Source: Rhodothermus profundi (GTDB lineage Bacteria; Bacteroidota; Rhodothermia; Rhodothermales; Rhodothermaceae). From it: a stretch of DNA of 64,000 nt. The stretch lies in the NCBI RefSeq assembly GCF_900142415.1, contig NZ_FRAU01000007.1, positions 1 to 64,000 on the forward strand, read 5' to 3'. Position 1 is the stretch's first letter, and the number at the start of each line of letters is the position of its first letter. The notes below the pieces were generated by a model. That model was not told where the DNA came from. It worked only from the letters and a program-made list of their open reading frames with translations, and did not search any database. The translations under genes were made by a program, and so were the position numbers. This document shows, one piece after another, positions 13,268-26,240 of this stretch.

Positions 13268-14521
13268 ATGCTGCTGGGGACCAATCTCAAACACGCCAAG
13301 GCCTATAATTTCCGGATCATCTTGGAGACAATCCGGCGCTTTGGTCCAATTTCACGCGCCGATGTAGCTCGTCGCACGGAACTCACCGCTCAGACCGTCT
13401 CCAATATCACCCGGGAATTGCTGGGGATGGGGCTGATCTATGAGGCCGAACGACGACGCGACGGGCGAGGAGCCCCTTCGATTCTGCTGGCCATCAACCC
13501 TGATGGCGCTTACTCCATCGGGCTCGATCTGGATCGCGACCATCTGACTGCGTTGCTGGTAGACTTCGCCGGCCAGATCCGCCGACGCGTCTATCAGACG
13601 CTGGAAGGAGTCCTGCCTCCCGAGCAGGCCATGGATTTGCTGGCCCGAACGGCAGAACGGCTCCTTCAGGACACCGGCGTGCCTCGCGAAAAGGTCTGGG
13701 GCATTGGCGTGGGCATTCCAGGACCCCTGGACGTCTCAAAGGATGGCCACGTTACCAACATTGCCAACCCCCGAGCTTTTCCTGGATGGCGCCGCGTCCC
13801 GGTCGTCGATATTCTGGAACAACGCCTCAGGCTGCCCATCTTCCTGGAAAACAACGCCACGGCAGCAGCCGTCGGCGAACGCTGGTACGGCGCCGGTCAA
13901 CATATCCCTACCTTCTTCTACGTATTCTTCAGTGAAGGACTGGGGGGTGGACTCATTTTCAACGGCCTGCCTTATGACGGCTATACCGGTAACGCCGGCG
14001 AGCTGGGCTACTGCTACCTTCCTCCCGAAATCTTCTCGGCCGAAGATCTGCACGTTTTCAAAAAACCCCATCTGGGCATTCTGTTCAGCGTCCCCCGCCT
14101 GTATCGTCAGCTCCAGGAAGCCGGCTACACGGCTCGCAGCCTGGAAGACCTGGAACAGCTCTTCCAGGACAAAAACCCGGTGTTGATCGACTGGCTGCAC
14201 GAGGGACTGGAACATCTTGCCCCGATCATCCTAGCCATCGAGTACATAATTGATCCAGAAGCCATCTTTTTCGGGGGGCGCTTACCAGAAACCATCATTG
14301 CCTATATCATCGAATGGTTGCAACAGCGCCTGGCTGAACTGCGCATTGAAGAAAAACCTCCAGTGCGCCTGTTGCCCGGGACGGCCGGGGTCGATGCTGC
14401 CGCTCTCGGCGTAGCTACCCTGCCCCTTTATGTCCAACTGGCTCCGGGACTCCACGTGTTGCTGAAGACGGGTAATGGTGAAGCCCTGACCCCAACCCGT
14501 TCGTCTGCCCCCGCCCGTTAA
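13268..14521 (+). CDS. ROK-family transcriptional repressor (NagC/XylR type), zinc motif missing
   Basis: A 417-residue protein with an N-terminal winged helix (ISRADVARRTELTAQTVSNITRELLGMGLI, about residues 25-60) and a C-terminal ROK sugar-kinase-like domain (YSIGLDLDRDHLTALLVDFAG; VWGIGVGIPGPLD; LENNATAAAVGERWYGAG; YTGNAGELGYCYLPPE). ROK proteins normally continue after GELGH with a Cys-rich zinc loop (CxCGxxGCxE). Here the His is Tyr and the Cys loop is absent, so sugar sensing is probably altered. No sugar genes adjoin it; the target is likely elsewhere or its own promoter. Its stop overlaps the convergent hydrolase gene. Confidence 0.88.
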   Translation: MLLGTNLKHAKAYNFRIILETIRRFGPISRADVARRTELTAQTVSNITRELLGMGLIYEAERRRDGRGAPSILLAINPDGAYSIGLDLDRDHLTALLVDFAGQIRRRVYQTLEGVLPPEQAMDLLARTAERLLQDTGVPREKVWGIGVGIPGPLDVSKDGHVTNIANPRAFPGWRRVPVVDILEQRLRLPIFLENNATAAAVGERWYGAGQHIPTFFYVFFSEGLGGGLIFNGLPYDGYTGNAGELGYCYLPPEIFSAEDLHVFKKPHLGILFSVPRLYRQLQEAGYTARSLEDLEQLFQDKNPVLIDWLHEGLEHLAPIILAIEYIIDPEAIFFGGRLPETIIAYIIEWLQQRLAELRIEEKPPVRLLPGTAGVDAAALGVATLPLYVQLAPGLHVLLKTGNGEALTPTRSSAPAR

Positions 14522-15441
14522 AAGGTTCCAAAAAGAAAACGAAGTACCTGCTGCGCAAACACTTCCGGCTGCTCTAAAACCAACAGGTGGCCGGCATGGG
14601 GGATAAGTATACCCTGCGCTTCAGGAAGCCGCTGCAGGGCCACTTGAAGGATATCGGCTGGTGTCTCGGTGGGCCTGAACAATCGATTGGGAATGAGCTG
14701 ATCATCTTCCCCAAATACCACCAGGGTGGGGTGCGACACTTCAGGCAACCGCGCAAACACCGGCTCGTCCAGCATACCGGCTATCGCCCGCGCATTGGCT
14801 TCGGCATAGGCTCGAAAATCAGCGCGCCGCTGCATTTGCTCGCGTTGCTGCAACAGCCAACCGAACCGATCCGGATCCCAATGGGCAAAGTTGCGCTGCA
14901 CGTTCTGCGCGTAAAGCGCCGGTGGCATGGCTTCAATGGCTTCGGCCGTAAACAGCAGTTTCAACTGGGCCGCCGCTTCCGGCGTGAACGTCTCAATCCC
15001 GGCTGGCGCCGCCAGCACCAACCGACGAACGCGCGCCGGATGCCGGAGCGCCAGAGTAAGCGCAATCTGCCCTCCCATGGACAGGCCGATCAGATCAACC
15101 TGCCTCAGCCCCAGCGCATCCAACCAGGAGACCAGCACCTCGGCATAAAAGGACGGGGTGGCCGGTACGTTGTGCTTGTCCGAAAGTCCAAATCCGGGCA
15201 GATCCAACGCCAGAACGCGTGCCTTGCGGCGAAGCAACGGAACCACAGCCCGCCAGATCGACAGGTTGGTACCCAGACCGTGCACCAGTACCACCGGTGG
15301 GCCAGCGGTGCGGCTGTCGTGGTACACCAGGCGGTACCCCTGCACCTGAATGGTGTCAAGCGCCGCCGGATAGCCTGCCAGCGGCTGAGCCGCTGCATGC
15401 GGAACGGCCACCAGCATCATGAGCAGTCCTATTCGTTTCAT
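14518..15441 (-). CDS. Exported alpha/beta hydrolase
   Basis: A 307-residue alpha/beta-hydrolase with a signal peptide (MKRIGLLMMLVAVPHAAAQ). Core motifs: oxyanion-hole LVHGLGTNLSIW, ALDLPGFGLSD, nucleophile elbow GLSMGG (Ser121), acid in VFGEDDQLIP and base in PHAGHLLVLE. It probably cleaves an ester, thioester or similar bond in the periplasm. It is the last gene of a six-gene minus-strand operon and overlaps the CoA-ligase gene by four bases. A role releasing a free carboxylic acid for uptake and activation fits the context but is inferred. Confidence 0.87.
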   Translation of the reverse strand: MKRIGLLMMLVAVPHAAAQPLAGYPAALDTIQVQGYRLVYHDSRTAGPPVVLVHGLGTNLSIWRAVVPLLRRKARVLALDLPGFGLSDKHNVPATPSFYAEVLVSWLDALGLRQVDLIGLSMGGQIALTLALRHPARVRRLVLAAPAGIETFTPEAAAQLKLLFTAEAIEAMPPALYAQNVQRNFAHWDPDRFGWLLQQREQMQRRADFRAYAEANARAIAGMLDEPVFARLPEVSHPTLVVFGEDDQLIPNRLFRPTETPADILQVALQRLPEAQGILIPHAGHLLVLEQPEVFAQQVLRFLFGTF

Positions 15442-16958
15442 TGGTTCAGCCGGTTGAGCGCCTGCGCGCGGAGGGCGCGCTTGTCACATTTACCTGTCGG
15501 CCCAAGCGGAAGCGTCTCCAGAAAAAACACATGGCGCGGCACCTTGTAACCGGCCAGCTGCGTCCGGCAATAAGCCTGCACCGCCTCGGCCGTCAGCGTC
15601 CGCCCGGGCTTCAACACCAGAAAAGCAGCGCCTGTCTCGCCCCACTTTGGATCCGGCACGCCCACCACAGCCGCCTCAGCTACGTCCGGATGCCGCCGAA
15701 GCACGGCCTCAACCTCGGCAGGATAGACATTTTCTCCGCCGCTGATATACATGTCCTTCTTGCGTCCCACGACATAGAAATAGCCGTCTGCATCCTGCCG
15801 CACCAGATCGCCCGTGTGGAACCAGCCCGCTGCGTCGATCGCTTCGGCCGTCGCTTCCGGCCGTTGCCAGTAACCCGGCGTTACCACCGGTCCCCGCATC
15901 AGCAGTTCGCCCACGGTATCCACCCCCACCTCACGTCCCTGCTCATCGACCACGCGCACCTCAACATAGAAATTGGGGAGCCCTATCGACCCGATCTTTC
16001 GGAGGGCATCGGCCTCCGAAAGCGAAAAGCAATTGACGCCCACTTCCGTCATGCCAAATCCCTGACGAATCGGGACCCCCTTCGCATGCCACCGCCGAAT
16101 CAGCGGCTCCGGCATTGCCTCGCCTCCTACCACCGCATAGCGGACGGTCGAAAGCGACGTGCGCTCAAAGCGGGGATGCTCGGCCAGCATCCGGAGCATA
16201 GTGGGCACGCCCCAGAGAATGGTGATGCCGGCCTCCTCACAGAGCTGAAGAATCTGGCCCGGATCAAAGCGGTCCAGTAGATAGGTATGCCCTCCTTTGA
16301 ACAGAAAAGGCGTCAGCAGCACATTCCAGCCTCCTGTATGGTAAAACGGCGCCGCATTAAAGGAAACGTCCTGGCTGGTCAGATCCAGACGATGGATGGT
16401 ATTAAAGGCATTCCAGGCGATCATGCCATGCGTAATGATCGCCCCTTTAGGACGGCCAGTCGTACCCGAGGTGTAAAGGATCATGAGCGGATCCTCCAGG
16501 TGCACCGCAGGACGCACCTTTCGCTGCGCACCGGACCGAGCAAACGTACGCACCGTCTCCAGCGGAAGCAAGGCGTCGACGCCCAGCGTCCGCGCCACGT
16601 CCGTATAAGGCGCATCATAGACGAGCAACGCGGGCGTACTGTCGGCCACCTGGTAGGCCAGCTCCGGGGCAGCCAGTCGGTAATTGAGGGGCACCAGGAT
16701 CCATCCTGCCTTCTGACAGGCCACAAACAGCAGCACATGCTCGGGCCGGTTTTCGGCCAGCACGGCGATGCGGTCTCCCTTCTGCACGTCAAATTGCGCT
16801 GTCAGGACGGCCGCCAGTGCCTCACCTTCGTCATGCAGCCGCGCAAACGTCCAGCGCTCACCGGTCGGCACCCAGGTAAGCGCGGGACGCTCCGGCCAGT
16901 ACTGCGCGTTTCGTTCCAGCCAGTCGGTGCGAATGAAGGGTTGCCGATCGGATTTCAT
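15438..16958 (-). CDS. AMP-forming acyl-CoA ligase
   Basis: A 506-residue ANL-superfamily ligase. The P-loop-like core is LMILYTSGTTGRPKGAIIT; later motifs are GFGMTEVGVNCF, GELLMRGPVVTPGYW, WFHTGDLVRQDADGYFYVVGRKKDMYISGGENVYPAEVE, and the C-terminal lysine in GPTGKCDKRAL. It activates a carboxylic acid to its acyl-CoA via acyl-AMP. The substrate may be a fatty, aromatic or short-chain acid; the sequence is of the general long/medium-chain and o-succinylbenzoate-like type. It overlaps both neighbours by four bases, so expression is tightly coupled with the symporter and the hydrolase. Confidence 0.9.
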   Translation of the reverse strand: MKSDRQPFIRTDWLERNAQYWPERPALTWVPTGERWTFARLHDEGEALAAVLTAQFDVQKGDRIAVLAENRPEHVLLFVACQKAGWILVPLNYRLAAPELAYQVADSTPALLVYDAPYTDVARTLGVDALLPLETVRTFARSGAQRKVRPAVHLEDPLMILYTSGTTGRPKGAIITHGMIAWNAFNTIHRLDLTSQDVSFNAAPFYHTGGWNVLLTPFLFKGGHTYLLDRFDPGQILQLCEEAGITILWGVPTMLRMLAEHPRFERTSLSTVRYAVVGGEAMPEPLIRRWHAKGVPIRQGFGMTEVGVNCFSLSEADALRKIGSIGLPNFYVEVRVVDEQGREVGVDTVGELLMRGPVVTPGYWQRPEATAEAIDAAGWFHTGDLVRQDADGYFYVVGRKKDMYISGGENVYPAEVEAVLRRHPDVAEAAVVGVPDPKWGETGAAFLVLKPGRTLTAEAVQAYCRTQLAGYKVPRHVFFLETLPLGPTGKCDKRALRAQALNRLNQ

Positions 16959-18430
16959 GATCTCGGTTGAATGGTCGGTTGCTGCATCTTGCGACCCAGC
17001 AGCGCCACCGCTGTGCTGCTCAACACAGCCCAGGTTGCCGGAACCGCCGGATTATTCCAGTAGGGGCCAAGCTGTCCGTAATACATGCCAAAATGGACCG
17101 TCAACGCCGTCAGCGCCGCTATCATAATGACGCGCGGCGGGAGCGAGACGCCCAGGACGCCCAGAAGCACCGGAGCGAACGTGGCCGCAAACAGGGCATA
17201 GACCCCGTTCTGCGCTAAAATAGCTACAGAAAGCGCCGGCGTAAGCTGGTCATACCCTAACCCCAGCAGCAGAGGGGCCAGCGCGACCAGCGTCAACTTG
17301 CCCACTTTCAGCGCGCGCCGCTCTACCACGCTGGCCGGCACCCCGCGCATCAATGCCCAGGATCGATACAGATCGTTCGCCACAATAGCCGCCAGCGCTA
17401 CCATCAGTCCTTCCAGCGTCGAATAACCGGCCGCCAGCAATCCAATGGTGATCAGCCCACGCACCACCGGACCAAACCGTTCTACCAAGTAGGTGGGAAT
17501 GACCGCATCGGCGACCAGGTCCGCTTCGGGCATCAGCAGGCGGGCATACAGACCAGTCAACAGCACGGAGAAAAACACAAATGCTACGCCGAACCCAACC
17601 AGCAGGTAGCGTCCTACATCGGCTTCAGAGCGAAGATAAAGGGCTTTGGACAGCAGATGGGGCTGGGTAATGACCGCCACTCCTACAACAAAATTGGCCA
17701 CAAAGACTTCGAACGGACTGCGAAACAACAAACTTTCGGGATTGACGGGACGCGCCAGGTTCGGATCGATAGCCGCCAGCCGGGCAAGCAGGCCCGACAG
17801 CCCCCCTTCCCAGTAGGCCAGGCCCGACCCGATCAGCAACACGGCCACAATGAGCATGATCAACGCCTGGGCCGTGTTCGTCAGCGTATGCGCACCGGCT
17901 CCCCCCAGCAGTAGATATCCCAGCGGAATCGCTATCGTCAGCACCAGCGCCACCACCAGCCCGATGCCCAGCACGCTGGAAAGTACCCGGGCCAGCCCGA
18001 CCACAATCAGCACCATGAACGTGATGAGCAGCAGACTCAGCAACGCATAGAGCACCCCGAGCCGTCGGTCGTCGTAACGCGCTGCAATCCATTGCGGCAG
18101 GGTTAACGCTGCGTAGCGATCGCCCAACCGACGAAAACGCCGGCTCAACACCACCACCCCTACCAGGATGCCCAGCGGCGTGGCCACACCGTAGCCCAGG
18201 TAACCTGCCCATCCGTAGAGATAAACCAATCCCGGATTGATAACGAACGTCGCGGCACTGGTCAGATTCGCCGCCAGAGAGAGCCCTACCAGCACAGGAC
18301 TGACCGCACGGCTTCCGACCGAAAACCCTGCCAGTCCACGCGTTCCACGCATCCCGAGCAGGGCTGCCCCGCCGACCAGCAGCAGGTAAGCCAGAAAGAA
18401 TCCCCAGCCAATGGCATGTTCTGCTCCCAT
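16955..18430 (-). CDS. Sodium:solute symporter (SSS family)
   Basis: A 491-residue polytopic membrane protein with about 13 hydrophobic segments, belonging to the SSS family that imports organic solutes with Na+. Recognisable stretches are GFSVGSRAVSPVLVGLSLAANLTSAATFVINPGLVYLYGWAG, GYSTLEGLMVALAAIVANDLYR and the C-terminal repeats of the LeuT-like fold. The substrate is not evident. Cotranscription with a CoA ligase and a TonB receptor suggests a carboxylate such as a fatty, aromatic or hydroxy acid. Confidence 0.9.
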   Translation of the reverse strand: MGAEHAIGWGFFLAYLLLVGGAALLGMRGTRGLAGFSVGSRAVSPVLVGLSLAANLTSAATFVINPGLVYLYGWAGYLGYGVATPLGILVGVVVLSRRFRRLGDRYAALTLPQWIAARYDDRRLGVLYALLSLLLITFMVLIVVGLARVLSSVLGIGLVVALVLTIAIPLGYLLLGGAGAHTLTNTAQALIMLIVAVLLIGSGLAYWEGGLSGLLARLAAIDPNLARPVNPESLLFRSPFEVFVANFVVGVAVITQPHLLSKALYLRSEADVGRYLLVGFGVAFVFFSVLLTGLYARLLMPEADLVADAVIPTYLVERFGPVVRGLITIGLLAAGYSTLEGLMVALAAIVANDLYRSWALMRGVPASVVERRALKVGKLTLVALAPLLLGLGYDQLTPALSVAILAQNGVYALFAATFAPVLLGVLGVSLPPRVIMIAALTALTVHFGMYYGQLGPYWNNPAVPATWAVLSSTAVALLGRKMQQPTIQPRS

Positions 18431-18440
18431 AAGCGTGCGG

Positions 18441-19415
18441 TCAGGTGTCGTAGGCCCAGCGAAGCGCCATGGCAGCCAGCGCTGCTCCTCCCCCCGAGGC
18501 GATCAGGTACACCAGATCCCCTCGTCGCAGCCGATGCTGGCAGGCGGCATCGGCCAGCACCATCGGAATACAGGCGCTTCCCGTGTATCCATACCGATCC
18601 ATCACATAGTGCGTGCGCGTTTCCGGCAGTCCCAGCACTTCCAGCGTCTCCCGAATGCTGAGCACATTGATCTGGGTAAAAAACAGGTGATCCACGTCCT
18701 CAGGCGCCACCCCCAGCGCTGCGGAAAGCCAGCGTACCAGGCGCGTCCAGTGATCGACGTTGTAGGTCTTCGGAAACTTTTTTCGAAATTCCAGAACCTG
18801 AGGGCCTGCCGGGCAGCAGGCGCCTCCGGTGTAAATGCCCATGTAGTCGTAGTACTGGCCTTCCGCCTCCAGACGGGTCAGCAAAATGCCTGGTTCGTCC
18901 TCATCGGCCGGAGCCAGCACTACGGCGCCGGCTCCATCCGCAAACAACGTAGCGATGTTACGCTGGGAAAAGTCCAGGAATCGGCTCATCAGATACCCAC
19001 CGGCCACCAGTACCGGACCATTTCCTCGTTCTACAAACTGCCGTCCGATTTCCAGGGCGGTTACAAAGCCGGCGCAGGCCGCATTGACATCGAACGTTCC
19101 TGCCCGCGAGGCCCCCAACTTGTGCTGCACGACAGTAGCCGTAGCCGGCGAGAGATAGTCGGGCGTGTCGGTTGCCACAATGATCAGCGTTAGATCGGCC
19201 GGAGACAGCCCCGCTTCCTTCAGCGCAGCCCGGGCTGCAGCGACTACCAGATCCGACGTAGTCTGTCCGTCTTCAGCGTACCGCCGCTCCCGAATGTTGC
19301 GCTGCGTGCGCAGGAAGCTGTCCACATCTTCGCCGTAGTATTCGTTGAAATAGGCATTGGTCACCACGCGGGGCGGGGCGTAGAGTCCGGTTCCGATAAT
19401 CTGTGCCCGTGCCAT
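18441..19415 (-). CDS. FabH-like ketoacyl synthase III homologue lacking catalytic His and Asn
   Basis: A 324-residue thiolase-fold protein with the KAS III layout. The nucleophile Cys114 is intact (FDVNAACAGF), and the C-terminal glycine motif (IASGGGAALAAMAL) is present. Where FabH has PHQAN it reads FTQIN (Thr247 for His), and where FabH has GNTSAAS it reads GYTGSAC (Tyr277 for Asn). Without these residues, decarboxylative condensation with malonyl-ACP is unlikely; acyl transfer or a non-decarboxylating reaction is more plausible. It lies five bases after the SDR gene and ten before the symporter, within one operon. Confidence 0.88.
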   Translation of the reverse strand: MARAQIIGTGLYAPPRVVTNAYFNEYYGEDVDSFLRTQRNIRERRYAEDGQTTSDLVVAAARAALKEAGLSPADLTLIIVATDTPDYLSPATATVVQHKLGASRAGTFDVNAACAGFVTALEIGRQFVERGNGPVLVAGGYLMSRFLDFSQRNIATLFADGAGAVVLAPADEDEPGILLTRLEAEGQYYDYMGIYTGGACCPAGPQVLEFRKKFPKTYNVDHWTRLVRWLSAALGVAPEDVDHLFFTQINVLSIRETLEVLGLPETRTHYVMDRYGYTGSACIPMVLADAACQHRLRRGDLVYLIASGGGAALAAMALRWAYDT

Positions 19416-19419
19416 TGGC

Positions 19420-20163
19420 CTACAGGGTTAATCCTCCATCCACGTTGAGCACCGCGCCTGTGATAAACGAAGCCTCGTCGGAGGCCAGAAACAGGTAGGC
19501 ACGGGCCACCTCTTCGGGACGTCCCAGGCGCTGCAACGGCGTGCGCGTGCGCACCATGTCCAGCACCTTCGCCGGCACCTGCCGCGTCATGTCGGTTTCG
19601 ATAAACCCGGGCGCTACCGCATTGACCCGGATACCGTAGCGTCCCAGCTCGCGCGCCCAGGTTTTTGTCATGCCAATGACACCGGCTTTGGTCGCCACGT
19701 AGTTTGTCTGTCCGAAATTGCCGGCATGCGCCACGACAGACGAGGCGTTCAGGATGCACCCGCTTCCCTGCGCTTCCATGTACGGCAGCACGGCCTTCGT
19801 GCACAGAAAGACGCCGGTCAGGTTCACTTCGACCACCGCCTGAAACTGCGCCAGGGTCATCTTGCGCAGGGTGGCATCCTGCGTAACGCCCGCGTTATTG
19901 ACCAGGATGTCGATGCGTCCGAAACGGGCTGCTGTGTCCTGCGCCATGCGCTCAACCTCCTCGGGGCGCGTGACGTCCACCGAAAGGGCCACCATGCGCG
20001 CTCCTTCTGTCTGCATTTCCTGCACCAGCGCCGCAGCGGCTGCGCGGTCCCGGTCGGCCACCACCACCGCTGCCCCCTCACGGGCAAACAGGATGGCCGT
20101 GGCCCGACCGATACCGCGCGCGCCGCCGGTTATGATAGCGACTTTCCCTTCCAGTCTTCCCAT
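19420..20163 (-). CDS. Short-chain dehydrogenase/reductase, FabG-like
   Basis: A 247-residue classical SDR that reduces a 3-oxoacyl or similar carbonyl with NAD(P)H. Visible are the cofactor glycine motif TGGARGIG, NNAG (89-92), Asn114, and the Ser142/Tyr155/Lys159 catalytic set (ASSVVAHAGNFGQTNYVATKAG), then PGFIETDMT. Length and motifs fit FabG, but it sits with an acyl-CoA ligase and an atypical KAS III rather than with the fab genes, so it is probably a pathway-specific paralogue. It starts three bases after the TonB receptor gene. Confidence 0.88.
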   Translation of the reverse strand: MGRLEGKVAIITGGARGIGRATAILFAREGAAVVVADRDRAAAAALVQEMQTEGARMVALSVDVTRPEEVERMAQDTAARFGRIDILVNNAGVTQDATLRKMTLAQFQAVVEVNLTGVFLCTKAVLPYMEAQGSGCILNASSVVAHAGNFGQTNYVATKAGVIGMTKTWARELGRYGIRVNAVAPGFIETDMTRQVPAKVLDMVRTRTPLQRLGRPEEVARAYLFLASDEASFITGAVLNVDGGLTL

Positions 20164-20166
20164 GAC

Positions 20167-22602
20167 TCAGTACCTCCATCCGGAAAAGTGGTAGGTAAGC
20201 CCCAACCAGGCCAAACGACCGCGCACCGGAGCGCCCAGCACATCGTAGCCTTTGTTGTTCAACAGATTCGAGATGCTTACCGTCAGGTCAAGTCCGATGC
20301 GCGGCACCCGGTACCCCAGCGTCAGATCTACCACCGTACGCGCCGGGACTTTGCCTCCATGCTGCGGCAGCATGGTCTCGCTGTTCCAGTAACCCGATAC
20401 GAAACGATAGGCACTCTGGTAGCGAGCGCTCAGGCTGACAAAAGCGCCTTCCAGGGCGGCATCGTGCACGGTCACCTGGCCCTTTAGCTTTGTTTCGGGC
20501 ACGTTCAGCGGCAGCTCGCGCTGCCCGGCCGTCTCTGTAAAGCGGCGAAGCGAGATCAGCGAAACGCTGCCAGAAAGGGTGACATACGAGGACGGGTACA
20601 GCGTAAGCCCGACGTCCAGTCCTGCCACCTGCGCCCGGCCAAAGTTCAGATAGGTCAGCAAACCATTGAACCGCGCATCCGAAGCCGGAGCCTGCACCGG
20701 CGTGCTTCCGTCGGCCTCATAGGCCACCGTGGTAAAGCCATCGGCCACCAGCGTCAACGGACTGATGAAGTTGCGGTACCAGGAGTAGTAGCCCACGACG
20801 TCCACGAACGCCCGCGTGCCAAAGGCCCCCTTGTACCCCAGCTCCAGCGCGTCAACCTGCTCCGGCTCCAGCCCGGCTATCCGATTCACAACCTGCCCAC
20901 TGGCATCCTTAATCACGTAGCCTTCTCGATTGCCAAAGGCATTGACATAATAGCCGGGCACAATGTCGAAACGCGGGATAGGAATGAACAAGTAGTTCTC
21001 CAGAATGGTCGGACTTTTGAAGGCCCGATTGTACCCGACGCGGACGTTGTGGCCGGGATAAACGGTGTAGACCAACGCCACCTTGGGACTGAACTGGGTG
21101 CTGTAGTTCGTATGGCGGTCGATCCGGGCTGCCGTTACCAGACGCAGCCGATCCGGTACCAACCGGAGATCCACCTGGGCATAGCCCCCCACTTCGGTTG
21201 CGCTGAGATCTTCCCCGCCCGCATCAGCCAGAAACGTCCCGTCCGAGTCCGGCAGATAACGCCGCACCTGCAGCCCGGCCACTACGCGCCCCTGCAGAAA
21301 CGGCAGGGCCTGCCGGTACTGAATCTCCCCATCCAGCAGCGCCCCGCGATCCACGAACGTGGTGGCGTCCCGCAGCACCTCCAGGTCCACCTGCGCCAGC
21401 GGCCGTCCTGCCGCTACCTGAGCAGCCGCCGCCTGCACCACGGCATTGAGCTGATAGGTTCGGCCTGCATCGTTCTTCGTGCGCGTGAACTGAACGTACC
21501 AGTTCGGATGGCTCAGTTCCACCGTCTGGTACTGCACCACCCAGCCCCGGACGTGATTGCGGCCGTTGTTAGTCAACCCGAAGTTGTCGTTGGTTGAATA
21601 GCCCAGGCCGGCTTTGGCCTTCCACGCTCCCAGGCGGTAGTACAGGAACCCTTCCAACTTGGCCGAGCGAATGCGATAGCCCCCCAGGTCTCGCAACACC
21701 TCCCCTTCGTAGATCGACGTGCCGTAGTTGTGCAATCCCTCTTCTCGGCTCGGCGCAAAGTCCTCGGCCTTCAGGTACTGGCCCGTAATCTTCCAGCCCC
21801 AGGCGCCGATGGTTCCGGCGGCTCGCCCCGTTACATCGATCAGCGATCGCTCACCCGTCCGGGCCATCAGGGAAAGCCCGGACTCATCCCAGGGATCTTT
21901 GGTGATGACGTTCACCACCCCGGTGTGGGCGTTCGGACCATACAGCGCCGAAGCAGGCCCCACGACCACCTCAATCGCTTTGATGTCCAGCGGGGCAGTG
22001 GGCAGAAAATTCCCCTGAGGGAGTCCGGTCCCGGGAAGCTGCGCTACACGGCCATCCACCATGGCCAGCATGCGCGTGTTGAACTGGCTGTTGAAGCCGC
22101 GTGCCGAAATGCCCTGGGCATTGATGCCTGCATCCACGAAGTCAATTCCTTTCAGGCCAGCAAGCGCCGACAGAAACGTGCCGCCACCGGTGCGCGCCAG
22201 GTCGGCCGCTGTGATGGTTTCAATGGTAACTGGCGCTTCCAGCAGTTTTTCCGTCTGCCGCGTGCCGGTTACCACTACCGCCTCGGCTTCAAACAGGACG
22301 GGCTCCAACGCCAGCGTTAGCTGCACCGACGCCGCGCCCACCGCTACCGGCTGCTGCAGCGTTTGATACCCCACAAACGAAACCTGCAAGGTGTAGCGTC
22401 CCGGGGCGACGGGCCCCAGACGAAACGCACCGTCCACATCGGTGGTCGTGCCCTGGCCGGTCTCCAGGAGCACAACGTTGGCGCCAGGCAGCGCCGCGCC
22501 ACGGTGCGCCTCCCGCACCTGACCTTCAATCCAGACGGACTGTGCCAGGGCGAAAGGGCTTACGAGCCAGCCCAGCCAGCATAACCAGAGCAGCCGTTTC
22601 AT
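20167..22602 (-). CDS. TonB-dependent outer-membrane receptor
   Basis: An 811-residue receptor. A signal peptide (MKRLLWLCWLGWLVSPFALAQ) is followed by a carboxypeptidase-D-like beta domain (IEGQVREAHRGAALPGANVVLLETGQG), then the plug domain (VVVTGTRQTEKLLEAPVTIETITAADLARTGG; GPASALYGPNAHTGVVNVITKDPW) and a 22-strand barrel ending in aromatic-rich LAWLGLTYHFSGWRY. It is the first gene of the operon, with a good ribosome-binding site (GGGAGG) and an upstream promoter overlapped by a palindrome. It imports an unknown ligand, presumably the acid or ester handled by the downstream enzymes. Confidence 0.93.
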   Translation of the reverse strand: MKRLLWLCWLGWLVSPFALAQSVWIEGQVREAHRGAALPGANVVLLETGQGTTTDVDGAFRLGPVAPGRYTLQVSFVGYQTLQQPVAVGAASVQLTLALEPVLFEAEAVVVTGTRQTEKLLEAPVTIETITAADLARTGGGTFLSALAGLKGIDFVDAGINAQGISARGFNSQFNTRMLAMVDGRVAQLPGTGLPQGNFLPTAPLDIKAIEVVVGPASALYGPNAHTGVVNVITKDPWDESGLSLMARTGERSLIDVTGRAAGTIGAWGWKITGQYLKAEDFAPSREEGLHNYGTSIYEGEVLRDLGGYRIRSAKLEGFLYYRLGAWKAKAGLGYSTNDNFGLTNNGRNHVRGWVVQYQTVELSHPNWYVQFTRTKNDAGRTYQLNAVVQAAAAQVAAGRPLAQVDLEVLRDATTFVDRGALLDGEIQYRQALPFLQGRVVAGLQVRRYLPDSDGTFLADAGGEDLSATEVGGYAQVDLRLVPDRLRLVTAARIDRHTNYSTQFSPKVALVYTVYPGHNVRVGYNRAFKSPTILENYLFIPIPRFDIVPGYYVNAFGNREGYVIKDASGQVVNRIAGLEPEQVDALELGYKGAFGTRAFVDVVGYYSWYRNFISPLTLVADGFTTVAYEADGSTPVQAPASDARFNGLLTYLNFGRAQVAGLDVGLTLYPSSYVTLSGSVSLISLRRFTETAGQRELPLNVPETKLKGQVTVHDAALEGAFVSLSARYQSAYRFVSGYWNSETMLPQHGGKVPARTVVDLTLGYRVPRIGLDLTVSISNLLNNKGYDVLGAPVRGRLAWLGLTYHFSGWRY

Positions 22603-22697: not shown

Positions 22698-23204
22698 TCA
22701 GCTTGAAGACACGCCGGCAGCTTCCAGTTGCGCCCGGACCCGCTCCCACTCCTGGGTAAAGTTCTCGTAGAACTGTTCCATGAGCCGATAGAAGGCCTGC
22801 ATGTGCCGCAACCGTTCGATTGCTGCCTGGTGGGCAGGATCTCCCGACGCCTCCATCTCCCGTAGAAATTGCTCGGCCGTACGCCGGTTCTTTCGAACCG
22901 TGGCCAGATTAAACTTGAAGTTGTTCAGGAAAAGATCAGGATGCGCCACGTAATAGTCCCGCCGGTTTTCCGGCCCGTTCACCTTCCGCACCAGCCCAAT
23001 GCTGGCCAGCTCCCGAATCGTGCTCGAAATCGGCCCTTTCGAACGATTGAGCAGGGTAGCAATGTCATCCAATGAAAGCGGCTCCGCTTGCGTCAACAAC
23101 AACCCGACGATCAATCCCTTCAGCCGCGACAGGCCATACCCTTCGTAAATGTTGCCGAACTCCTCCACCAGATCACGCTGCAGTGGCGTCAGCCCTCGTC
23201 CCAT
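22698..23204 (-). CDS. GbsR/MarR-type transcriptional regulator
   Basis: A 168-residue winged-helix protein of the GbsR (MarR-like) family. The DNA-binding region is LTQAEPLSLDDIATLLNRSKGPISSTIRELASIGLVRKVNGPENRRDYYVAHPD (about residues 37-90), followed by a helical C-terminal dimerisation and sensing part. It lies directly upstream of the TonB-receptor operon on the same strand. Matching palindromes lie before its own start (15 bases away) and in the gap to the receptor gene, which points to autoregulation and control of the operon. The ligand is unknown; an acyl-CoA or free acid intermediate is a reasonable guess. Confidence 0.85.
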   Translation of the reverse strand: MGRGLTPLQRDLVEEFGNIYEGYGLSRLKGLIVGLLLTQAEPLSLDDIATLLNRSKGPISSTIRELASIGLVRKVNGPENRRDYYVAHPDLFLNNFKFNLATVRKNRRTAEQFLREMEASGDPAHQAAIERLRHMQAFYRLMEQFYENFTQEWERVRAQLEAAGVSSS

Positions 23205-23236: not shown

Positions 23237-23308
23237 AAAAATAAAATGGACAACCTCGATTGTCAAGGGCTCATGAATAAAACAGGACCGCCTCGACCTT
23301 CCGTGAAA

Positions 23309-23365: not shown

Positions 23366-23809
23366 ATGATGACCCGTGGCGAACTGGCCCGGCGGACCGG
23401 CGTGCATGCTGAAACGATCCGCTACTATGAACAGCGCGGCCTGTTGCCTCCGCCGCAGCGGACAGCCGCTGGATACCGCACCTATACCGAGACAGACGTC
23501 GAGCGGCTGCGCTTTATCAAGCGGGCCCAGGAACTGGGCTTTTCGCTGCGAGAAATCGAAGAACTGCTAACGCTGGAAGCCACGCCGGGCGCCAGCAGTG
23601 GACTGGTTCGCCAGCGAGCACTGGCCAAAATCGCCGAAATCGAAGCGCGAATTCGGGACCTGACCCGCATTCGCGATACGCTGCGCCGTCTGGTAGCGGC
23701 CTGCGACGGTCAGGCTCCAATTGAGCACTGCCCCATCTTGCACGCCTTGCACGACAAGCACGGAGCGTATGTCGATGACGGAGCCGCTGACGGAAAATCC
23801 CACGCCTGA
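23366..23809 (+). CDS. MerR-family metal-responsive activator (CueR-like)
   Basis: A 147-residue MerR protein. The N-terminal winged helix ([55 protein letters not shown]) is standard, followed by the dimerisation helix and the metal loop Cys113-x8-Cys122 ([13 protein letters not shown]). The position that is Cys in the divalent-metal sensors (ZntR, MerR) is occupied by Ser here (Ser77/78), as in Cu(I) sensors such as CueR. This agrees with the CopA and CopZ genes that follow. AAGAAAGG precedes the start as ribosome-binding site. Its end overlaps the start of copA. Confidence 0.85.
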
Positions 23810-26240
23810 GACCAGCGCGGCGCTGCGCCTGCCCGTTGAGGGCATGGAATGCGCAGCTTGCGCCGTTCGCATCGAACGACGCCTGCGCAATGTGCCGGGC
23901 GTGCGGGAAGCGGCGGTCAACTACGCCACCGGCGAAGCGGCGGTGGCCATCGATCCCAACGCGGTTGGTCTGGATCAGCTCGTAGCGACCATTGAAGCCG
24001 CAGGCTATGGCGTCCGCACCGAAACCCTGCGGTGCCCGCTGACGCGCGCGCCTTCCGATGGCGAGCTGGCGCAGCTTTTTGCGCGCACGAATGGCGTGCT
24101 AGCCTGGGAAGTTGTTTCTGAAGGCGAAACGCCGGTGCTTCAGGTGCGCTACGTACCGGTGGTGGCCGATCCGGCCGCGTTGCAGCAGCAGCTCGCCGCG
24201 GCCGGCTTGCTGGCCGAACATGAACGCCAGGCTGTACCGACCGGCCGTGAGGCGCTGCGCCGCGAACGCGAAGCCCACTACCGAGACGCTCGACGGCGTT
24301 TCTGGATTGCCGCCGCGCTGAGCATTCCGGTCGTTGTGCTGGCCATGTGGCCGGGCGCCCATGAACTGGCCGGCGCTGTCTGGATCCAGTGGTTGCTGAC
24401 CACGCCCGTTGTCTTCTGGTCGGGCCGCCCATTCTTCACGGGAGCCTGGCGGGCTTTCCGTCATCACGCGGCCGACATGAACACTCTTGTAGCCATTGGC
24501 GTGGGCGCTGCCTATGTTTACAGCACGGTTGCCACTGTCTTCCCGCGCTTTTTTGAAGCGGCCGGACGCGCGCCAGATGTCTATTTTGAGGCAGCCGCGG
24601 TGATCGTCACGCTGATCCTGCTGGGTCGCATGCTCGAAGCACGGGCGCGCGCTCGAACCAGTGCAGCCATCGAAAAGCTGCTTGATCTGCAACCGCCTCG
24701 CGCTCGCGTTGAACGCAACGGGCATCTGGAAGAAATCTCTGTCGAAGCGGTCCGGGTAGGAGACCGGGTGATCGTTCGCCCTGGAGAAAAAATTCCCGTG
24801 GACGGCGTCATCGAAGAAGGGGTGGCGGCTATTGATGAAAGCATGATCACGGGCGAGTCGATTCCGGTCGATAAAAAGCCCGGCGACTCGGTAATAGGGG
24901 GCACCGTAAATCGAAGCGGAGCGCTGGTCATCCGCGTTACCCGTATCGGGCGTGACACGGTGCTTCAGCAGATTGTCCGTCTTGTTGAAGAAGCTCAGGC
25001 CCGTAAAGCGCCCATTCAACGGCTGGCCGACCGCGTGGCGGGCATCTTTGTCCCTGCAGTGCTCCTAGTAGCTATTGCCACGTTTGTGCTCTGGTTCGAC
25101 TTTGGGCCAGAGCCGCGACTGACGCACGCCTTGCTCACCTTTGTGTCCGTGCTCATTATTGCCTGCCCCTGTGCGCTGGGGCTGGCTACCCCCACCGCCA
25201 TTCTGGTCGCTACAGGCCGGGCTGCTCAGATTGGCGTGCTGATTAAAGGAGGCGATGCGCTGGAACGTTTGCGCCAGGTCGATCTGATTGTGTTCGACAA
25301 AACCGGCACGCTCACCGAAGGGCGTCCGCGTCTGGAGCGTGTCGTATCGCTGAACGGGTATGACGCCGACCAATTGCTGACCCTGGCGGCGGCTGTTGAG
25401 CAGCGTTCAGAGCACCCGCTAGCCCGCGCTATTGTGGAGGCGGCCGAAACGCGCGGCCTGAAGCTTCCGTCCGTCCAGGACTTCGAGGTGCTGACCGGTC
25501 TGGGCGTTGCCGCCCGGGTGGATGGGCGCCTGGTGCAGATCGCACGTCCGGCTTTTCTGGCGGAACAGGGCATTCCGGTGCCGGAAGAGATGGTAGCCAG
25601 GCTGGCTGGCGAGGGGCATACGGTTGTGGCCGTGGCCGTGGATCATCGGCCAGCCGGCCTGCTGGCCATTGCCGACACGATTCGCCCTTCAGCCGAATCG
25701 GCTATCCGGGCCCTGCATCGCATGGGTCGTCGCGTCGCGATGATTACGGGCGACAGCGAAACCGCAGCCCGGACGGTTGCCCGGCGACTGGGAATCGACG
25801 AAGTACGCGCCAACGTGCTTCCTCAGGATAAAACAGCGGCTGTGGCTGCTTTTCAAGCGGAAGGCTATGTGGTGGCTATGGTAGGCGATGGCATCAATGA
25901 TGCCCCTGCCCTGGCACAGGCCGACGTAGGCATTGCAATGGGCACAGGCACGGATGTGGCTATTGAGGCCGGCGACGTCACGCTCATGCGGCCCGATCTG
26001 CGCGCTGTGGTAGACGCGTTCCGGCTGTCTACTCGCACGCTCCGCACCATCAAGCAGAATCTATTCTTTGCCTTTATATATAACGTGCTGGGCATTCCCA
26101 TCGCGGCGGGAGTGTTGTATCCATTTACGGGCCTGTTGCTCAGTCCCATGATTGCAGCAGCCGCCATGGCGCTTTCAAGCGTCTCGGTCGTCACGAACAG
26201 TCTTCGGCTGCGACGTTTTCAACCTGAACTGCTGTCCTGA
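23775..26240 (+). CDS. copA: Copper-exporting P1B-1-type ATPase CopA
   Basis: A heavy-metal P-type ATPase of about 821 residues that exports Cu(I). The order is: N-terminal HMA domain ([12 protein letters not shown]), a second degenerate region without CxxC, eight membrane helices, actuator TGES, CPC metal site ([13 protein letters not shown]), phosphorylation motif [27 protein letters not shown], and the P1B-1 hallmarks in the last helices ([15 protein letters not shown]). The start at 23775 or 23769 is favoured over 23721, because GGAG lies nine bases before 23775. The gene overlaps the MerR gene by about 35 bases, so they are coupled. Confidence 0.94.

Follow-up and report, generated by a model that had tools for sequence, protein, structure and literature searches.

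What does an enzyme do when it keeps the fold and the reactive cysteine of β-ketoacyl-ACP synthase III (KASIII, FabH) but has other residues in place of its catalytic histidine and asparagine? The question is raised by a gene in the window, i.e., the 64,000-nucleotide stretch of Rhodothermus profundi DNA analyzed here. The open reading frame is complete and encodes a full-length protein (Table 1), in which both KASIII Pfam domains, PF08545 and PF08541, scored above their cut-offs. An AlphaFold2 model of the protein (mean pLDDT 95.8, pTM 0.94) had KASIII, FabH, or BioZ structures as all of its top matches with Foldseek and VIA-align (Z of about 46 to 47, rmsd of 1.5 to 2.0). No curated NCBIfam model scored above its own cut-off: the protein missed those of the FabH models TIGR00747 (210.5 versus 292.1 bits) and NF006829 (232.9 versus 249 bits), that of the PRK06840 model NF005308 (124.6 versus 315), and, by far, those of the HMG-CoA synthase models TIGR01835 (20.7 versus 360) and TIGR00748 (41.8 versus 353). 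It also fell short of the cut-off of the thiolase domain PF00108 (24.7 versus 26.4 bits). We use CTY as shorthand for Cys-Thr-Tyr proteins of this kind.

Table 1. Positions of the CTY-KASIII gene, its key codons, and the surrounding operon in the window
Feature	Position	Strand	Remarks
MarR/CudC-like regulator, first gene of the operon	22698..23204	minus	PF13463/PF01047, weak NF047500
TonB-dependent outer-membrane receptor	20167..22602	minus	PF00593, PF07715, PF13715
FabG-like short-chain dehydrogenase, NAD(H) type	19420..20163	minus	Asp37 at the end of beta-2; 247 aa
CTY-KASIII gene	18441..19415	minus	324 aa; KASIII fold; Cys114/Asp83/Thr247/Tyr277
Asp83 codon	19167..19169	minus	Asp in 111/111 relatives; aligned with the catalytic Glu of HMG-CoA synthase
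Cys114 codon	19074..19076	minus	nucleophile; equivalent to E. coli FabH Cys112; invariant (111/111)
Thr247 codon	18675..18677	minus	replaces catalytic His244; Thr in 110/111 relatives, Ser in 1; His in 12/12 canonical FabHs
Tyr277 codon	18585..18587	minus	replaces catalytic Asn274; Tyr in 111/111 relatives; Asn in 12/12 canonical FabHs
Sodium:solute symporter (SSF family)	16955..18430	minus	PF00474; near the CTY gene in 18/19 same-phylum loci
AMP-forming acyl-CoA ligase	15438..16958	minus	PF00501/PF13193
Alpha/beta hydrolase with N-terminal signal-peptide-like stretch	14518..15441	minus	PF00561; MKRIGLLMMLVAVPHAAAQP... read by eye
Promoter-like site TTGACA-17-TATTTT upstream of the operon	23238..23266	minus	count not above chance expectation; suggested by position only

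A GTDB genome scan recovered 80 loci with full-length relatives (46 to 95% identity), and 35 of 198 genomes from the same phylum carried one strong match each. With a Chloroflexota plasmid relative (43% identity) and a divergent Bdellovibrio paralogue added, the comparison set reached 111 sequences from about ten phyla, of which somewhat fewer are independent since a few loci were fetched twice. A pseudogene was ruled out, given a full-length gene with relatives at 46 to 95% identity across about ten phyla. The CTY proteins grouped as one clade in a maximum-likelihood tree (support 99/94), so that the FTQIN and GYTGSAC motifs do define a clade, a point the first-pass annotation had raised for checking. 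The CTY proteins and a PRK06840-like sister clade were together split from canonical FabH (support 100/98). The CTY clade is a large bacterial family that keeps the FabH fold and the reactive cysteine, with the rest of the catalytic residues swapped. We found no paper on this clade or assay of any member in the open-licence literature, and found no function for the PRK06840-like sister clade.

The first-pass annotation had described an intact Cys114, Thr247 in place of histidine, and Tyr277 in place of asparagine, and this description held both in the alignment with E. coli FabH (probability 100%) and across the 111 relatives. The alignment is gap-free around all three sites, which lie in the motifs DVNAACAGF (Cys114), FFTQIN (Thr247), and GYTGSAC (Tyr277). 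Chance or misalignment was ruled out by the invariance of the pattern and by the flanking residues Gln248, Asn250, and Gly276, which hold the alignment in register; Gln248 itself is kept in 111/111 CTY relatives. All 12 canonical FabHs compared, 11 of them from the same genomes as CTY genes, have Cys-His-Asn. The protein thus shares with the FabHs of E. coli, Aquifex, and B. subtilis the fold (33 to 36% identity), the nucleophilic cysteine, and the equivalents of Gln245 and Asn247, but differs by the Thr/Tyr pair, by Asp83, by its operon, and by serine at two further positions, namely, the gate residue Phe87 (Ser in 109/111 CTY proteins) and Phe304 (Ser in 108/111). Three more replacements, Asp140 by Tyr, Ala216 by Asn, and Leu220 by Trp, occur in 111/111 CTY proteins each. 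Arg249 is the ACP-docking residue of E. coli FabH, and its equivalent varies within the CTY clade. In FabH, the acyl group is accepted by Cys112, and malonyl-ACP is decarboxylated by His244/Asn274. Both residues of this pair are required for malonyl decarboxylation in E. coli FabH, while a PqsC His mutant still acylates, i.e., acyl loading in PqsBC needs no histidine (PMC4807248). CTY proteins should therefore load acyl groups yet lack the decarboxylating pair.

Two elements go beyond the first-pass annotation, namely, Asp83 and the operon. Asp83 (VATD83TPDY) is aspartate in 111/111 CTY proteins. The same position is never acidic in the 12 canonical FabHs (V, T, S, A, I, or L) and is glutamate in 5/5 members of the PRK06840-like sister clade, which further resembles the CTY proteins in its cysteine and in having no catalytic asparagine, but differs by a histidine at the Tyr277 site, Leu or Thr at position 247, and only about 27% identity to the CTY protein. 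Three profile alignments placed Asp83 on a glutamate: that of archaeal-type HMG-CoA synthases (GSE), that of a bacterial HMG-CoA synthase (GTE), and that of the sister clade. In HMG-CoA synthase, a glutamate serves as general acid/base when the C-C bond is formed (Chun et al. 2000, cited in PMC13412983). We take the aligned residue to be this catalytic glutamate, Glu79 of the S. aureus enzyme and Glu95 of the avian enzyme. HMG-CoA synthase and CTY proteins share the superfamily fold, a nucleophilic cysteine, and an acidic residue that aligns between them, but HMG-CoA synthase keeps a histidine at the Thr247 position (the His of FHQPN in locus L124). The alignments suggest that Asp83 lies in the CTY active site.

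The gene is part of a seven-gene minus-strand operon running from 23204 down to 14518, in the order MarR-like regulator, TonB receptor, FabG-like dehydrogenase, CTY-KASIII, symporter, ligase, and hydrolase. The symporter and ligase genes and the ligase and hydrolase genes overlap by 4 bases each, and CTY-KASIII is spaced 4 and 10 bases from the genes flanking it. Judged by eye, hydrolase counterparts in several other phyla resemble secreted proteins or lipoproteins. Downstream, a plus-strand gene for a ROK-family regulator/kinase (13268-14521) converges on the operon, its end overlapping that of the hydrolase gene by 4 bases. Upstream, a CueR/MerR-like regulator and a CopA-type copper ATPase (23366-26240, plus strand) are transcribed away from it; the start of the ATPase is uncertain because the called open reading frames of the two genes overlap.

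The core of the operon is found again in other phyla. To count neighbors, we ran profile searches on 46 loci flanked by 4 kb or more in both directions, scoring genes within 6 kb, and on 19 additional same-phylum loci. The ligase was found near the CTY gene in 41/46 and 19/19 loci (60 of the 65 with full flanks), the dehydrogenase in 32/46 and 18/19, and the hydrolase in 37/46 and 15/19; besides the symporter (Table 1), the regulator recurred in 16 of the 19 same-phylum loci. At ten canonical FabH loci of the same genomes, the ligase and the hydrolase were each found at none, the dehydrogenase at four, plsX at three, and fabD at three. Import genes also recur, with a type that varies by phylum: SSF and TonB genes in Bacteroidota/Rhodothermota, and Liv-type binding proteins in Chloroflexota, the latter near the CTY gene in the three Chloroflexota-type loci examined. 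The Chloroflexota plasmid locus has a CoA-transferase family protein at the usual place of the ligase, and Competibacter-type genomes have no ligase near the CTY gene. Some loci contain additional MaoC- or ECH-type hydratases. HutH genes beside some Ignavibacteria CTY loci were set aside as apparent chance neighbors.

The dehydrogenase bears on the direction of the pathway. An aspartate or glutamate at the end of the second strand, which favors NAD(H), was present in 62/62 CTY-neighbor dehydrogenases and in 0/5 canonical FabGs, that of E. coli included. Among solved structures, the window dehydrogenase is closest to 4nbu, 4nbw, 4nbv, and 4nbt, presumably the FabGs that Javidpour et al. 2014 described as NADH-dependent, followed in fifth place by 2et6, a (3R)-hydroxyacyl-CoA dehydrogenase. 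NAD use, the importers, and a secreted hydrolase together argue for breakdown rather than synthesis. As for the substrate, aliphatic (R)-3-hydroxyacids, as in PHA, would suit the operon because of the FabG-type dehydrogenase and the hydrolases, which weakly resemble PHB depolymerases. Aryl-propanoid-type acids would suit it because the nearest solved relatives of the window ligase include the feruloyl-CoA synthetase 8wev and because of the MaoC/ECH-type hydratases in some loci.

With its catalytic residues swapped and its gene in an uptake-and-breakdown operon, the CTY enzyme probably cleaves or links carbon chains through a reaction different from that of FabH. We give about an even chance to the reading that CTY-KASIII is a CoA-dependent, non-decarboxylating C-C enzyme of a catabolic operon, most likely catalyzing a thiolase-like retro-Claisen cleavage. 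A (hydroxy)acid freed by the secreted hydrolase would enter the cell through the TonB receptor and the sodium symporter, and the ligase would turn it into a CoA thioester, so that CoA rather than ACP would carry the chain. The NAD-dependent FabG-like dehydrogenase would then convert 3-hydroxyacyl-CoA to 3-ketoacyl-CoA, which the CTY enzyme would cleave. In this step, Cys114 would attack the C3 ketone, Tyr277 and Thr247 would stabilize the leaving enolate, and Asp83 may serve as proton donor/acceptor before CoA releases the acyl group from the enzyme. By superfamily equivalence, traced through FabH, Thr247 and Tyr277 presumably occupy the sites of the thiolase NEAF asparagine and GHP histidine, respectively, and Ala306-Ser307 that of the second cysteine. 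The absence of both the GHP histidine and the second cysteine from the CTY protein speaks against a thiolase-like mechanism. Two further observations count against the cleavage reading: every genome checked has at least three ordinary thiolases, with one CTY cluster containing a thiolase of its own, and Competibacter-type genomes lack a ligase near the CTY gene. A role as substitute for missing thiolases was ruled out by the thiolase counts.

Tentatively, and with a little less than even confidence, we consider the CTY site a second solution to thiolase chemistry in the KASIII branch, that is, a family spanning phyla whose Cys-Asp-Thr-Tyr site catalyzes Claisen cleavage (or condensation) and needs neither the His/Asn of KASIII enzymes nor the thiolase His and second Cys. 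If so, an unrecognized pathway for hydroxyacid esters would rely on the CTY enzyme to cleave the C-C bond. The catalytic site of this enzyme would be, as far as we found, new to the superfamily, and the enzyme would account for the C-C chemistry of a catabolic operon found repeatedly in Bdellovibrionota, Bacteroidota/Rhodothermota, Myxococcota, Chloroflexota, and other groups. CTY genes are, or would be, annotated as "beta-ketoacyl-ACP synthase III," a name that is probably wrong throughout the clade. The pattern D83, C114, T247, Y277 lets annotators separate the CTY clade from real FabH and is open to mutation tests.

The first-pass annotation had left acyl transfer, thiolysis, and non-decarboxylating condensation side by side; the operon and Asp83 favor a non-decarboxylating (retro-)Claisen reaction and disfavor plain acyl transfer with an amine or alcohol as acceptor. 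The same chemistry run forward would be a condensation of the OleA or HMG-CoA synthase type, in which the acyl-enzyme would react with a second acyl-CoA, Asp83 would act as the base, and the dehydrogenase would reduce the 3-keto/3-hydroxy product. The position of Asp83 on the HMG-CoA synthase glutamate is in line with this, as is the change of the gate residue Phe87 to serine, which could admit bulky acyl chains. OleA likewise combines a KASIII-like fold and CoA substrates with a non-decarboxylating reaction, and the hydrolase, ligase, and short-chain dehydrogenase neighbors formally resemble OleB, OleC, and OleD. We nevertheless consider a forward condensation unlikely, as the dehydrogenase is a 247-residue FabG-type enzyme with an NAD motif rather than OleD-type, the hydrolase has, by eye, a signal peptide, and importers recur. 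In addition, Ser89-Pro90 would stand at the place of the OleA Glu117-Pro, going by the position traced through FabH. Glu117-Pro is essential in OleA (PMC7064751). An OleABCD operon was considered as well, and the dehydrogenase type and the Ser-Pro motif, placed in the same indirect way, speak against it.

An acyltransferase or thioesterase, in which Cys114 would pass an acyl group from acyl-CoA to a hydroxyl, an amine, CoA, or water and no C-C bond would be made or broken, appears quite unlikely. In its favor, acyl loading in a KASIII fold needs neither His nor Asn, as the PqsC mutant mentioned above indicates (PMC4807248), and KASIII-fold acyltransferases exist (PMC9573744). Several KASIII-fold enzymes with altered triads are in fact known, namely, CerJ and ChlB3 (Cys-His-Asp; PMC9573744), DpsC (Ser-His-His), and PqsC (Cys-His), but none has Cys-Thr-Tyr. 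CerJ and ChlB3 use a histidine at the Asn-position motif and an aspartate five residues on, where the CTY protein has Tyr277 and Cys282. Moreover, the operon contains no acceptor-making or glycosyltransferase gene, and acyl transfer would leave the invariant Asp83 and the dehydrogenase unexplained.

The canonical FabH of the same genome (C2) lies in plsX-fabH-fabD and has the motifs PHQAN and GNT, which rules out the CTY gene as the sole KASIII of the genome and hence as its real FabH; each of seven other CTY genomes examined also has at least one canonical FabH. A further KASIII of the own genome (C12:59446-60414), whose PHQAN/GNS site is intact, has genes reading like bioF and bioA on either side and looks BioZ-type, so that the biotin precursor may come by a BioZ-type route. 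Given an ordinary FabH and this BioZ-like KASIII elsewhere, the window gene is a third, specialized copy. The expectation of the first-pass annotation that decarboxylative condensation should fail is well supported by the clade-wide loss of His and Asn and by the separate canonical FabH, but falls short of proof, because a FabH His mutant, as cited in PMC4807248, shows only a 10-fold loss of activity. An ordinary decarboxylating FabH that copes with the exchanged residues and serves to prime an unusual fatty acid is nonetheless highly improbable: the tenth of activity retained by that mutant and the FabH-like fold favor it, while the joint absence of His and Asn across the clade, the lack of plsX or fabD nearby, the unconserved ACP-docking arginine, and the canonical FabH already in the genome stand against it.

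Some CTY clusters contain further genes. KASIIIs of the sister clade were observed in several of them (L083:4050-5126, L063:45-1103, L075:4840-5829, L152:10316-11338, and L150). In Bdellovibrio, the divergent CTY-type KASIII (355 residues) directly follows a gene of the acetyl-CoA hydrolase/CoA-transferase family (L025:3958-6332), and this genome carries a standard CTY gene besides the divergent one. Lastly, a family of about 515 residues with almost no Pfam match, probably located in the outer membrane, is represented by L149:11562-13103 and by counterparts in L140, L141, L143, L019, L026, and L068; its members have the lipoprotein hydrolase on one side and the ligase or a small lipoprotein on the other.
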